DNA of 34,298 nt from Treponema sp. (GTDB taxonomy: Bacteria > Spirochaetota > Spirochaetia > Treponematales > Breznakiellaceae). Below, piece by piece: positions 9,142-23,610 of this stretch. Where the stretch lies: positions 1 to 34,298 of the forward strand of contig JAISCR010000129.1 of assembly GCA_031265435.1 (NCBI GenBank). Reading direction: 5' to 3'. How positions within the stretch are numbered: position 1 is the stretch's first letter; each line of letters opens with the position of its first letter. The notes under the pieces were generated by a model. The model did no database searches. It saw only the letters and a list, made by a program, of their open reading frames with translations, and was not told where the DNA came from. A program made the position numbers and the translations under genes.

Positions 9142-9393
9142 TTATGTTTTTTTATACTGCTTGTGCACCATCTCCATAGCCAGGTTCACGTGCTTGATGA
9201 AGTCCTTTGAAAGATGGTCGACGATGGGGTGTTCTTGTTCCGAGGCCCCCTCTCCCTTGAAAAGCTCCCAGACTTCACATTTAAGGGCATAGGCGAGGTT
9301 GCAGAGCGTCCTGGCCTGGGGAAAGTTGTTTCCCCGCTCGATGTTCGACAGAAAAGTCACGGAAATGCAGGCCTCCTCAGCGAGTACCTGCCT
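9142..9393 (-). pseudogene. 5'-truncated XRE-family repressor gene
   Basis: The frame reads '(R)QVLAEEACISVTFLSNIERG' and continues 'NNFPQARTLCNLAYALKCE', the second half of a Cro/C1-type helix-turn-helix and its C-terminal extension. The first helices and the start are missing. Upstream on this strand the frame passes a few residues of unrelated sequence into a TGA, and the opposite strand there already codes for the tail of an IS30-type transposase. The break is therefore at about 9388-9400. A GTG at 9360 could start a 72-residue remnant, but it would lack a complete DNA-binding domain. Confidence 0.75.
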
Positions 9394-9513
9394 AAAAAAA
9401 CATCATTTGACACTCTTACCCAAAAACAGTTTGACACAATCGTTGCCAAAATCAATAATCGACCTCGCAAGGTTTTAGGCTACCTGACTCCTTACGAAGC
9501 TTTTTCGCCGTAA
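9388..9513 (+). pseudogene. IS30-family transposase, C-terminal fragment
   Basis: About 41 residues, 'LPKKTSFDTLTQKQFD' then 'INNRPRKVLGYLTPYEAFS' and a stop, match the conserved C-terminus of IS30-family transposases (NNRPRK-LGY-TP-E). All upstream catalytic parts are missing, and the frame runs into the truncated xre gene read backwards. Sequence after the stop (AAATTCGCACTTCAA) resembles the end of an IS30 element. Confidence 0.8.
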
Positions 9514-9539
9514 AATTCGCACTTCAAAAAAAATTCCGC

Positions 9540-10043
9540 GACTATAGGCACCGGTATAAAAGAGCGAAAATCGGGCGCGTCTACAGCCAGATCATGCCCC
9601 CTAATGAATTTGGCGAAAGAGTGACGGGTTCTCAATTAAAGGAAATGATTGACAAGACCTGTGTTCCGGGAAGCACTGTCATAACCGATGAGTTTCCTGC
9701 CTACAGTATTCTCGATAAGCCTGTTTCGTCAAAAGCTGATCTGTCGCTGCTTGGCGATTCAGAGCCCGCTGAATCTGCCCCCCGTTACGGTCACCACACC
9801 GTTTGCCATAGACGCTATGAGTAGGTTGCGGGTCTGACTGAGGATAGCGAGCTTATCCATACAAACGGTATCGAAAGCCACTGGGCGATACTCAAGCGCT
9901 GCTATTACGGGATATATCATTCCATATCCGATAAGTATCTGCCGCATTATCTCGGTGAGTATTCTTTCCGTCAAAACACACGAAAGCTTCCCGATCCCGA
10001 TGTGTTTGACCTTTTGTTAAGGCAGAGCGTGTCGAAATCATAA
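9540..10043 (+). pseudogene. IS1595/ISXO2-type transposase remnant with in-frame stop
   Basis: One frame carries 'KIGRVYSQIMPPNEF', 'STVITDEFPAYSIL' (catalytic Asp region), then a TAG at 9822-9824, and continues as 'HTNGIESHWAILKR' (catalytic Glu region), 'CYYGIYHSISDKYL' and 'RQNTRKLPDPDVFDLLL' to a TAA at 10041. These are hallmarks of the DDE domain of ISXO2-like transposases. The N-terminal zinc-binding part is absent, and the sequence between the Asp and the stop is poorly conserved, so the element is dead. Confidence 0.82.
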
Positions 10044-22041: not shown

Positions 22042-22108
22042 AGCAAAAGAATTAGTGTCTGTACCATTCGTGCGGGTTCTTAAATCTTTTCCGTGTTTAG
22101 ATCTAATG

Positions 22109-22146
22109 CAAAAAGGGACTTTGACACTGAACCAGGTCAAAATCCC
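22109..22146 (-). terminator. Terminator of the HigA-like gene, possibly bidirectional
   Basis: 22115-22125 (GGGACTTTGAC) pairs with 22136-22146 (GTCAAAATCCC) with one mismatch and a 10-base loop. On the minus strand a run of five T follows. It lies between the convergent aminopeptidase and HigA-like genes. Confidence 0.6.
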
Positions 22147-22150
22147 CCTT

Positions 22151-22176
22151 AAAACTTGAACTCATTCCAAAACTAA
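22151..22176 (-). repeat. TTAGTTTTGGAA repeat, copy A
   Basis: On the minus strand it reads TTAGTTTTGGAATGAGTTCA and continues AAGTTTT. It is similar to copies at 24506-24525 and 27369-27391. It is intergenic, 24 bases after the HigA-like gene stop. Confidence 0.5.
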
Positions 22177-22200: not shown

Positions 22201-22683
22201 TTACTTGGCCTTGGAAGCGGCAGGCTTGCGGCCGCGTTTGGCGGGCGCTTTGGCAGCAGCCGCCTTGTCTTTCCTGGCGGCGGGCGCTTTAGCGGCAGGC
22301 TTAGCTTTCCTGGCAGGATCTTTAGCCGCTTTTTTGGGGGCGGCGGCTTTCTTGGGGGCAGCAGCTTTCTTGGCGGGTTTTTCAACCTTCTTGGCCGGAG
22401 AGATGGCTTTGAGAACCGCGGAAAGTTTTGAATCCTTGGCGGCTTCCGCAATATCATACTTGTTCTGCAGATCGATCCAGTATTCGGGAGTCTTGCCAAA
22501 ATACTTTGACAGCCTCAGTGCGATGGGGATCGAGATCTTCATCTTGTTGTTGATGAGCTGCCGAATTGACGACTGGCTCAAGGTGATGTCTGCAGCTACC
22601 TTTGCCGGGGAAAGCCCGTACTGATCGATGCAGGATTTGAGAACGACATTGGGAATCTGAATACTTTGACTTTGCTTTGCCAT
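22201..22683 (-). CDS. HigA-like helix-turn-helix protein with histone-H1-like Lys/Ala tail
   Basis: 160 residues. Residues about 1-90 match the HigA/XRE antidote fold ('LSPAKVAADITLSQSSIRQL', 'ISIPIALRLSKYFGKTPEYW'). Residues about 95-160 are a Lys/Ala/Pro tail with PKKAA repeats and a GRKPAA motif like AT-hook or histone H1 tails. No HigB-type toxin gene lies on either side, so an antitoxin role is unlikely. A DNA-compacting or global regulatory role is inferred from the tail. The ATG at 22683 has AAGGAG 7 bases upstream, and a good promoter lies 30 bases further up. The tail region has a different, GCC/AAG-rich codon pattern and may vary in length. Confidence 0.85.
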   Translation of the reverse strand: MAKQSQSIQIPNVVLKSCIDQYGLSPAKVAADITLSQSSIRQLINNKMKISIPIALRLSKYFGKTPEYWIDLQNKYDIAEAAKDSKLSAVLKAISPAKKVEKPAKKAAAPKKAAAPKKAAKDPARKAKPAAKAPAARKDKAAAAKAPAKRGRKPAASKAK

Positions 22684-22714
22684 AAATGAACTCCTTAAGA
22701 ATTGATTTATAAAA

Positions 22715-22743
22715 AGTATATACTGTTATTATAACTATGGCAA
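22715..22743 (-). promoter_or_regulatory. Promoter of the HigA-like gene
   Basis: On the minus strand TTGCCA (22738-22743), a 17-base spacer and TATACT (22715-22720). The start would lie about 25 bases before the ATG, leaving a leader with a full SD. This is the ordinary layout for comparison with the leaderless genes. Confidence 0.7.
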
Positions 22744-22860: not shown

Positions 22861-23610
22861 TTATACACCCACTATTCTCAGACGGTAGGCCAGACCAATC
22901 CTGTCAAGACAGTTTTGCAGAGATTCTCCCTTTTTACGCTGCCGCGCAAGGTCAATGGTAAACTGATTCATGGAAAAATGACGGTACAGAAACAGGGATT
23001 CTTTCAATCCGGGAGACGCAGCCTTCAGGGATTCGGTATAGACCGCAAAAATACCGCCTTCTTTCATCTCCGAATAGCCTGTAATCCAGACAGGAAGGTT
23101 TTTTTCAAGATCCTTTGAAAGTCCATAGTAGCATTCCTGCAGGAGATCTACCATCTTCTTTTGTGTTGCTTCAACAAGCGCCTGCAGTTCCGGGCCTCCC
23201 GCGCGGCAAAGCTCCCGCAATTCTCCTGTCCGGGGAGTGTGAATGGGCGTTTTGTTGAGAATTATGACATTTTTCCTGAAATCAATGCCCAAAACAGGGT
23301 TCTCCCGGAAAAATTTTTCCGCCAGTTTTCCCGAAGGGCCTACAAGATAACGCCGGTTTTCCAGAGCCTGTTCCTTTCTGCCGGGATTATCGGCTACCAG
23401 AATTAGTTTTATCTCGTCTGTTTTAGTAACGCTGTCCAGAGTTTCGTTGTATACAACCGGAGTATCAACGGTGTAGGCCGGCCCCTGCCTTGTTTCCGCC
23501 ATGCGCTGCTGCAGATCCTTTAAGCGGGGTATTTCGGCGGCGGTTTTTTCGCAGAGATTCCTGAATTTACGACGGAATTTGCAGAATGCCTGCCATGCCG
23601 AATGTGTCAT
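22861..23610 (-). CDS. Uracil-DNA-glycosylase-fold family protein
   Basis: 249 residues. 'LILVADNPGRKEQ' followed by 'RYLVGPSGKLAEKFF' and 'NVIILNKTPIHTP' correspond to motifs of the UDG superfamily (GExPG-like loop, then FVG-SG). The second half has 'VWITGYSEMKEGGIFAVYTE', then 'LFLYRHFSMNQF' near the position of the last family motif. The first motif has Asn before Pro-Gly, so substrate and activity may differ from family 4 enzymes. No Cys cluster for an iron-sulfur centre is obvious. The ATG overlaps the methyltransferase stop by 4 bases, so the two genes are coupled. Confidence 0.7.
   Translation of the reverse strand: MTHSAWQAFCKFRRKFRNLCEKTAAEIPRLKDLQQRMAETRQGPAYTVDTPVVYNETLDSVTKTDEIKLILVADNPGRKEQALENRRYLVGPSGKLAEKFFRENPVLGIDFRKNVIILNKTPIHTPRTGELRELCRAGGPELQALVEATQKKMVDLLQECYYGLSKDLEKNLPVWITGYSEMKEGGIFAVYTESLKAASPGLKESLFLYRHFSMNQFTIDLARQRKKGESLQNCLDRIGLAYRLRIVGV

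Follow-up and report, generated by a model that had tools for sequence, protein, structure and literature searches.

The question raised by this locus is what a protein of the antitoxin type might do when no toxin is encoded beside it and when it ends in a tail resembling that of a linker histone. The gene lies in a window (the whole stretch of DNA analysed) of 34,298 nucleotides from a Treponema sp. of the family Breznakiellaceae. The original prediction, made from the letters of the sequence, described a HigA-like helix-turn-helix (HTH) domain fused to a histone-H1-like tail, without a HigB gene on either side and with a promoter and terminator of its own, and suggested that an antidote fold had been recruited as a nucleoid-associated or global DNA-binding protein. 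The gene and the parts of its product are the following:

22201–22683, minus strand: gene for the protein with a HigA-type HTH and an H1-like tail, 160 amino acids, stop codon included (open reading frame, TIGR02607 and HTH_3 matches, third-position excess in five species)
22402–22683, minus strand: HigA-type HTH domain, residues 1–94 (TIGR02607, AlphaFold2, fold comparison)
22204–22401, minus strand: disordered Lys/Ala/Pro tail, residues 95–160, net charge +21 (composition, AlphaFold2)
22324–22373, minus strand: 18-bp tandem repeat, 2.8 copies, encoding KKAAAP-type units, the number of which differs between species
22222–22239, minus strand: KRGRKP, resembling an AT-hook, close to the C-terminus and shared by all five species of the genus

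Both halves of the predicted architecture were recovered. Residues 13–83 matched TIGR02607, the HigA model, with 62.2 bits against a cut-off of 47.7, and Pfam HTH_3 matched the 160-residue protein with 35.1 bits. In the AlphaFold2 model, built on an alignment of 32 relatives, block-mean pLDDT was 80–94 at residues 11–100 and 45–52 at residues 101–160, and the folded part is confidently predicted to be a six-helix domain and the tail to be disordered. The closest solved folds to this model were HigA proteins, the top two of them in complex with promoter DNA. The tail, 66 residues long, contains 26 alanines, 20 lysines, 9 prolines and 4 arginines, which agrees with the H1-like character ascribed to it.

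The tail is a genuine coding sequence, as judged from an excess of third-position changes and from its nearly fixed C-terminal end. Over all pairs of the five species of the genus, the differences in the tail fell 18, 61 and 107 times on the first, second and third codon position, respectively. Of the codon differences 92 were synonymous and 70 non-synonymous, and hardly any change was seen in the last 12 residues or in the stop codon. A run-on of the frame or an assembly artefact was ruled out by these same observations in the five species. The HTH also showed the third-position excess and was nearly constant in the genus (91–97 % identical to the HTH of the window protein in three of the relatives). 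The tail, when its length was compared, ranged from 55 to 73 residues, varying by KKAAAP-type units. The 18-base period in the DNA reflects this repeat, and its number thus varies among close relatives as it does in bacterial H1-like proteins. On the opposite strand an open reading frame rich in Leu, Ala and Phe (22205–22624, plus strand) was rejected as an artefact: it appears to be the reverse-complement reading of the tail's Lys/Ala codons. The genome of the window contains a second tailed copy (C162:4622–5227, locus L070), which encodes 201 residues with a tail of 110, and a copy in a similar setting (L089) was found in another genome of the genus.

The gene appears to form a transcription unit of its own, with the following elements:

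22691–22696, minus strand: ribosome-binding site AAGGAG (among words upstream of 143 of the toxin-free, "orphan-like" genes defined below, 7-mers containing AAGGAG were the most strongly enriched)
22715–22743, minus strand: predicted promoter TTGCCA-17-TATACT, found in five of five species of the genus
22098–22160, minus strand: terminator-like hairpin 3' of the gene, with five U in a row at its end, of which the lowest-energy fold pairs four

The promoter stretch was nearly identical in all five species, in each with AAGGAG ahead of the start codon. The hairpin had a folding energy of −22.6 kcal/mol (z = −4.36); a terminator pattern scan, in which loops were limited to 8, reported no hit for the minus strand. 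An own promoter and a terminator-like hairpin are given here as a prediction, in line with the original one. No HigB gene was found on either side: the gene is flanked on one side by a gene for an M18 aminopeptidase and on the other by a gene for a 249-residue protein followed by that of a SpoU methylase, with NAD synthase also nearby, and these neighbours look like housekeeping genes. The 249-residue protein (22864–23610) is kept in the genus and had no Pfam match at 1e-5. The HigB family PF05015 had no match in the genome of the window (84 % complete) or in any of the five genomes of the genus (77–92 % complete). Searches with PADLOC and Rfam gave no match. Three FlaA-family matches, compared with none in 14 control genomes, support the assignment to a spirochaete, FlaA being a hallmark of that group. 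Elsewhere in the window, short frames at 9214–9824 resemble transposase remnants, by reading alone.

The same combination of domains was sought in other spirochaete genomes. With the first 100 residues as the query, matches were obtained in at least 132 of the 195 genomes of the family, canonical HigA proteins among them. Relatives were called orphan-like or paired-like according to whether they scored better with a profile built from 30 tailed proteins (A1) or with one built from 25 HigB-paired proteins (A2); as this score sets the class, the 55 profile-building rows are circular. The 145 distinct orphan-like loci collected represent 109 genomes and 32 genus codes, none of them outside the family of the window; they were picked from the matches listed, best first, with divergent members elsewhere in the family partly fetched. 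Homologues consistently paired with HigB were not found: a HigB match within 400 bases was seen at none of the 145 loci, and at none of the 115 that remained when the profile-building rows were removed. The flanking sequence reached at least 330 bp on both sides in 132 of the loci and was shorter than 330 bp on one side in 13, so the absence of HigB is mostly not an effect of contig ends. Nor was the tail missing from all homologues. Tails of 25 residues or more were present in 119 of the 145 loci and in 89 of the 115; in the 119 they spanned 26–186 residues (median 58) and had a median net charge of +16. The other 26 of the 145 loci had a stub of 4–13 residues.

Paired-like loci (n = 54) showed the reverse picture, with HigB beside 50 and a long tail in one, an alphaproteobacterial locus. 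Thirty of these had been fetched via a HigB search and thus have HigB by construction; of those fetched by the HTH profile 20 out of 23 had HigB, the remaining single locus being one from Zavarzinia, without HigB. Without the profile-building rows, HigB was present in 25 and a tail in one of 29 paired-like loci. A Fisher table of 198 of the 199 rows (one row open at its 3' end was excluded) read 0/120 versus 49/29, and since the rows are related its value is not a probability of independent events. Ten orphan-like loci scored later, L255 among them, had no HigB; eight were tailed, one had a stub and one was cut by a contig end. Two more loci of that later set, L280 and L286, duplicated paired loci of the main collection. 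Across the family, PF05015 was found in 39 of the 195 genomes. Stub and tailed loci occurred together in 8 genomes, and orphan-like and paired-like loci together in 21. By eye, no conserved small toxin-like partner was seen beside the 145 orphan-like loci, the flanking genes of which were diverse. TIGR02607 matched all 32 tailed members scanned (E up to 0.001), NF038053 two and NF038052 one of them.

In a tree of 198 of the 199 rows (L136 was too short), a single branch separated the 145 orphan-like loci from the 53 others with a bootstrap of 98 and an SH-aLRT of 95, values obtained from few columns (93) and, for the bootstrap, not fully settled. The stubs required five changes on this tree and were nested within its tailed part. 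Because of this placement they look like later losses of the tail in sub-branches of the orphan-like clade. An upstream gene family of about 292 residues was common to 23 of the 26 stubs and one tailed locus, and a convergent downstream family of about 231 residues was common to 22 stubs; by eye, these look like a PHP-type phosphatase and endonuclease III, respectively. Stub loci such as L176, L182, L186 and L192 look like secondary tail losses that turned into specific regulators. As 26 of the 145 loci have a stub only, the tail is not indispensable everywhere.

Outside the family, the following statements cover the matches listed, and rarer fusions may exist beyond those. When 390 genomes from the order and 392 from the phylum were searched with the A1 profile, the listed matches outside the family scored at most 86.8 bits, compared with up to 153 inside. 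The top outside match among those listed, L123, is tailless and adjoins HigB. Nine long frames from outside the family were read as candidate tailed proteins; none had a basic tail, eight had HigB, and they were long mostly because of an N-terminal overhang. In a scan of named genome contigs only one locus was confirmed among the matches listed, in the alphaproteobacterium Zavarzinia (L039:4659–5693). Its HigA-type HTH is nearer to the paired profile and carries a Lys/Ala/Pro tail of 147 residues, no HigB neighbour was found at this locus, and the protein is apparently a second, independent fusion. Plasmid and phage relatives were rejected, as no place covering 80 % of the query was found in 47 plasmid and 26 phage records (best 15 listed of each). 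The eight loci on viral contigs were all tailless and had a HigB match in eight of eight cases. In a jumbo phage of Klebsiella (L274:1084–1806), a 240-residue protein ends C-terminally in a HigA-type HTH, and the stretch that was read contained no match to HigB.

The conserved architecture could be explained in several ways. The protein may simply regulate transcription from a single promoter or a small number of them, in which case the HTH would recognise a specific operator, the tail would do no more than raise affinity or residence time, and the genome would not be packed; we regard this as rather unlikely. In P. aeruginosa, HigA acts as a specific repressor, and its Thr40, Asp43 and Arg49 contact bases through water, according to the available part of its description (PMC6987408). 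By alignment the equivalent positions of the window protein are 39, 42 and 48, and these are variable in the tailed clade, which speaks against such a regulator, with the basic positions R41 (78 %), K47 (82 %) and K/R49 (88 %) mostly kept. The pattern fits low specificity and, equally, a specificity that differs species by species. In the stub relatives, by comparison, the base-reading positions are nearly fixed, though that group is shallow, as might be expected of specific regulators. Of 143 orphan-like genes, 118, 78 and 41 had inverted repeats with half-sites of 5, 6 and 7, respectively, in their 90 upstream bases, above all of 20 shuffles (maxima 114, 74 and 31), a pattern that specific autoregulation could produce; in the genus, inspection by eye also showed palindromes that overlap the promoter. 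However, no operator word common to the clade was found among these 143 regions: the shared words were the ribosome-binding site and a TACTCGAC word in 12–15 of the 143, at the −35 place of some loci. A single locus was read in 80 of the 109 genomes (not every copy was read), and this also would suit a regulator of few promoters.

The remaining explanations appear weaker still. The tail might act as a tether that grips DNA, polyphosphate or another polyanion, with the folded domain binding another partner, much as AlgP and PhaF do at granules. The composition of the tail resembles that of AlgP in the part of the article available (PMC9239181), but the folded domain is itself an HTH of the DNA-binding type with kept basic residues, and we consider a tether improbable. 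If the protein were a true antitoxin, it would have to act in trans on a toxin from another part of the genome, a reading that agrees with the score above the HigA equivalog cut-off and with the matches of all scanned tailed members to that model. Against this, PF05015, the sole toxin family searched genome-wide, was without a match in the five genomes of the genus (77–92 % complete), and the helix-1 motif EEFLxP of the HigB-paired relatives is lost: the paired set keeps E17, F18, P21 and R48 (82–88 %), and E17 and P21 are largely gone from the tailed set. The lost motif is plausibly the toxin-contacting surface, and action in trans seems very improbable to us. Least of all do we believe in a relic, an antitoxin in decay to which repeat slippage has added a selectively neutral stretch of low complexity. 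Such slippage would account for a tail length that varies by repeat units between species, but both HTH and tail show the third-position excess, the end of the tail is nearly fixed, the promoter and ribosome-binding site are kept, and the basic tail persists in 119 loci of a clade spanning 32 genus codes; a relic is thus highly improbable.

We consider it probable that the protein is a toxin-independent DNA-binding protein of HigA descent. The HTH would place it on DNA, probably as a dimer, as in HigA–DNA structures, and the disordered Lys/Ala/Pro tail would add non-specific affinity for DNA and neutralise charge, in a manner likened to that proposed for the H1-like tails of AlgP and PhaF. An AT-hook-like motif may assist in the tails of some members: RGR[KP] occurred in 34 of the 119 tails, compared with 0.7 on average and never more than 4 when the tails were shuffled. 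A further motif, KRKxAxKxPGxK, was common to 14 tails (L181, L174, L242, L191, L198, L212, L195, L200, L187, L121, L199, L205, L246 and L231), and acidic stretches lowered the net charge to +5 or less in 3 of the 119 (L081, L036 and L234). Such a protein would act as a regulator and at the same time coat or condense DNA, and would stand between a transcription factor and a nucleoid-associated protein.

It is possible, though we hold it as a doubtful extension of this view, that the proteins form a chromosome-coating family similar to linker histones, which arose once from an antidote in a spirochaete family, lost the toxin, gained the H1-like tail and became a genome organiser in a large share of the species, with a separate fusion in at least one alphaproteobacterium. 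The codon adaptation of the HTH part was 0.698, compared with 0.684 for HU and 0.665–0.776 for 14 reference genes (ribosomal proteins and rpoA). The measure has little power here; its start sites were assigned by a script, and each reference gene was scored against a set that includes it. With this ordinary value, codon usage gives no mark of high expression. As an HU gene is present in the genome of the window, the protein would not be the sole such factor. The suggested recruitment of an antidote fold thus stood as far as the conserved toxin-free arrangement with an H1-like tail is concerned; a nucleoid-associated or global role would be one possible outcome, to which the unremarkable codon usage lends no support of its own.

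What the sequences show is a conserved architecture with no toxin gene beside it, in a single clade of one spirochaete family, together with an own promoter and terminator-like hairpin and a predicted HigA fold that ends in a disordered tail; DNA binding, dimerisation, the part played by the tail and any global action are inferred. The group offers a clear example of the domestication of an addiction-module protein, in which the toxin was lost, a putatively DNA-binding tail was gained and the tail was later lost in sub-branches. The tailed and stub proteins and their HigB-paired relatives, in some cases found together in a single genome, provide material for testing what an H1-like tail does on a sequence-reading protein. 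The findings also suggest that "HigA antitoxin", the name given by the curated model to all 32 members scanned, is the wrong job description for this group of spirochaete genes. Counts of toxin–antitoxin systems would be inflated when orphan-like genes are named in this way.

Compared with known systems, the HTH has the same sequence type and fold as the HigA antitoxins (TIGR02607; P. aeruginosa 7csy and P. vulgaris 6chv), but the clade of the window has no HigB neighbour, has lost EEFLxP and has added a long basic tail. YbaQ of E. coli is a stand-alone regulator. It likewise has a HigA-type HTH (2eby), but its solved chain of 113 residues is too short for such a tail. In the tripartite toxin–antitoxin–chaperone systems, a HigA with a C-terminal extension is encoded alongside HigB and a SecB-like chaperone gene. 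The locus of the window differs from these in having no HigB. The C-terminal extension and SecB are both named for the tripartite system in the available part of one report (PMC6377645). In V. cholerae HigA2, as far as the accessible text describes it, a disordered region contacts DNA and raises the affinity for the operator more than 15-fold (PMC11006873), in which the present tail may resemble it; that region, however, is N-terminal and toxin-binding, whereas the tail here is C-terminal.

On the side of the tail, AlgP and PhaF of Pseudomonas have a disordered Lys/Ala/Pro repeat tail with a variable number of repeats, as here, and peptides with the KPAA repeats of AlgP bind DNA; the remainder of AlgP is a predicted alpha-helical domain of 124 residues, which the available part of the article does not describe as a HigA HTH (PMC9239181). 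Chlamydial Hc2 and other bacterial H1-like proteins similarly have lysine-rich repeats of varying number, according to the available part of the text (PMC2848022), and the few matches to NF038053 and NF038052 given above are a further likeness to them, but in the present protein the tail is attached to a HigA-type HTH. A related change of role is offered by SymE of E. coli, described as a nucleoid-associated protein with a MazE-like domain, in which an antitoxin-type fold has turned to non-specific, genome-wide binding; the same review, in its available part, calls the border between nucleoid proteins and transcription factors blurry (PMC11894785). The fold of SymE is unrelated to the HigA HTH, and the original account of SymE presented it as the toxin component of a type I system. 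TrtA of T. denticola is an XRE protein of 104 residues, the deletion of which changes 191 genes, in the part of the report available (PMC12724145).

The available part of the main text of an article on the Breznakiellaceae (PMC13067680) makes no mention of histones or antitoxins, and among the top matches listed from the open-licence literature none described the pairing of a HigA HTH with an H1-like tail. Orphan antitoxin-type regulators and bacterial H1-like tails are both known kinds; what is new is that the two are joined in one protein, conserved across much of a family.
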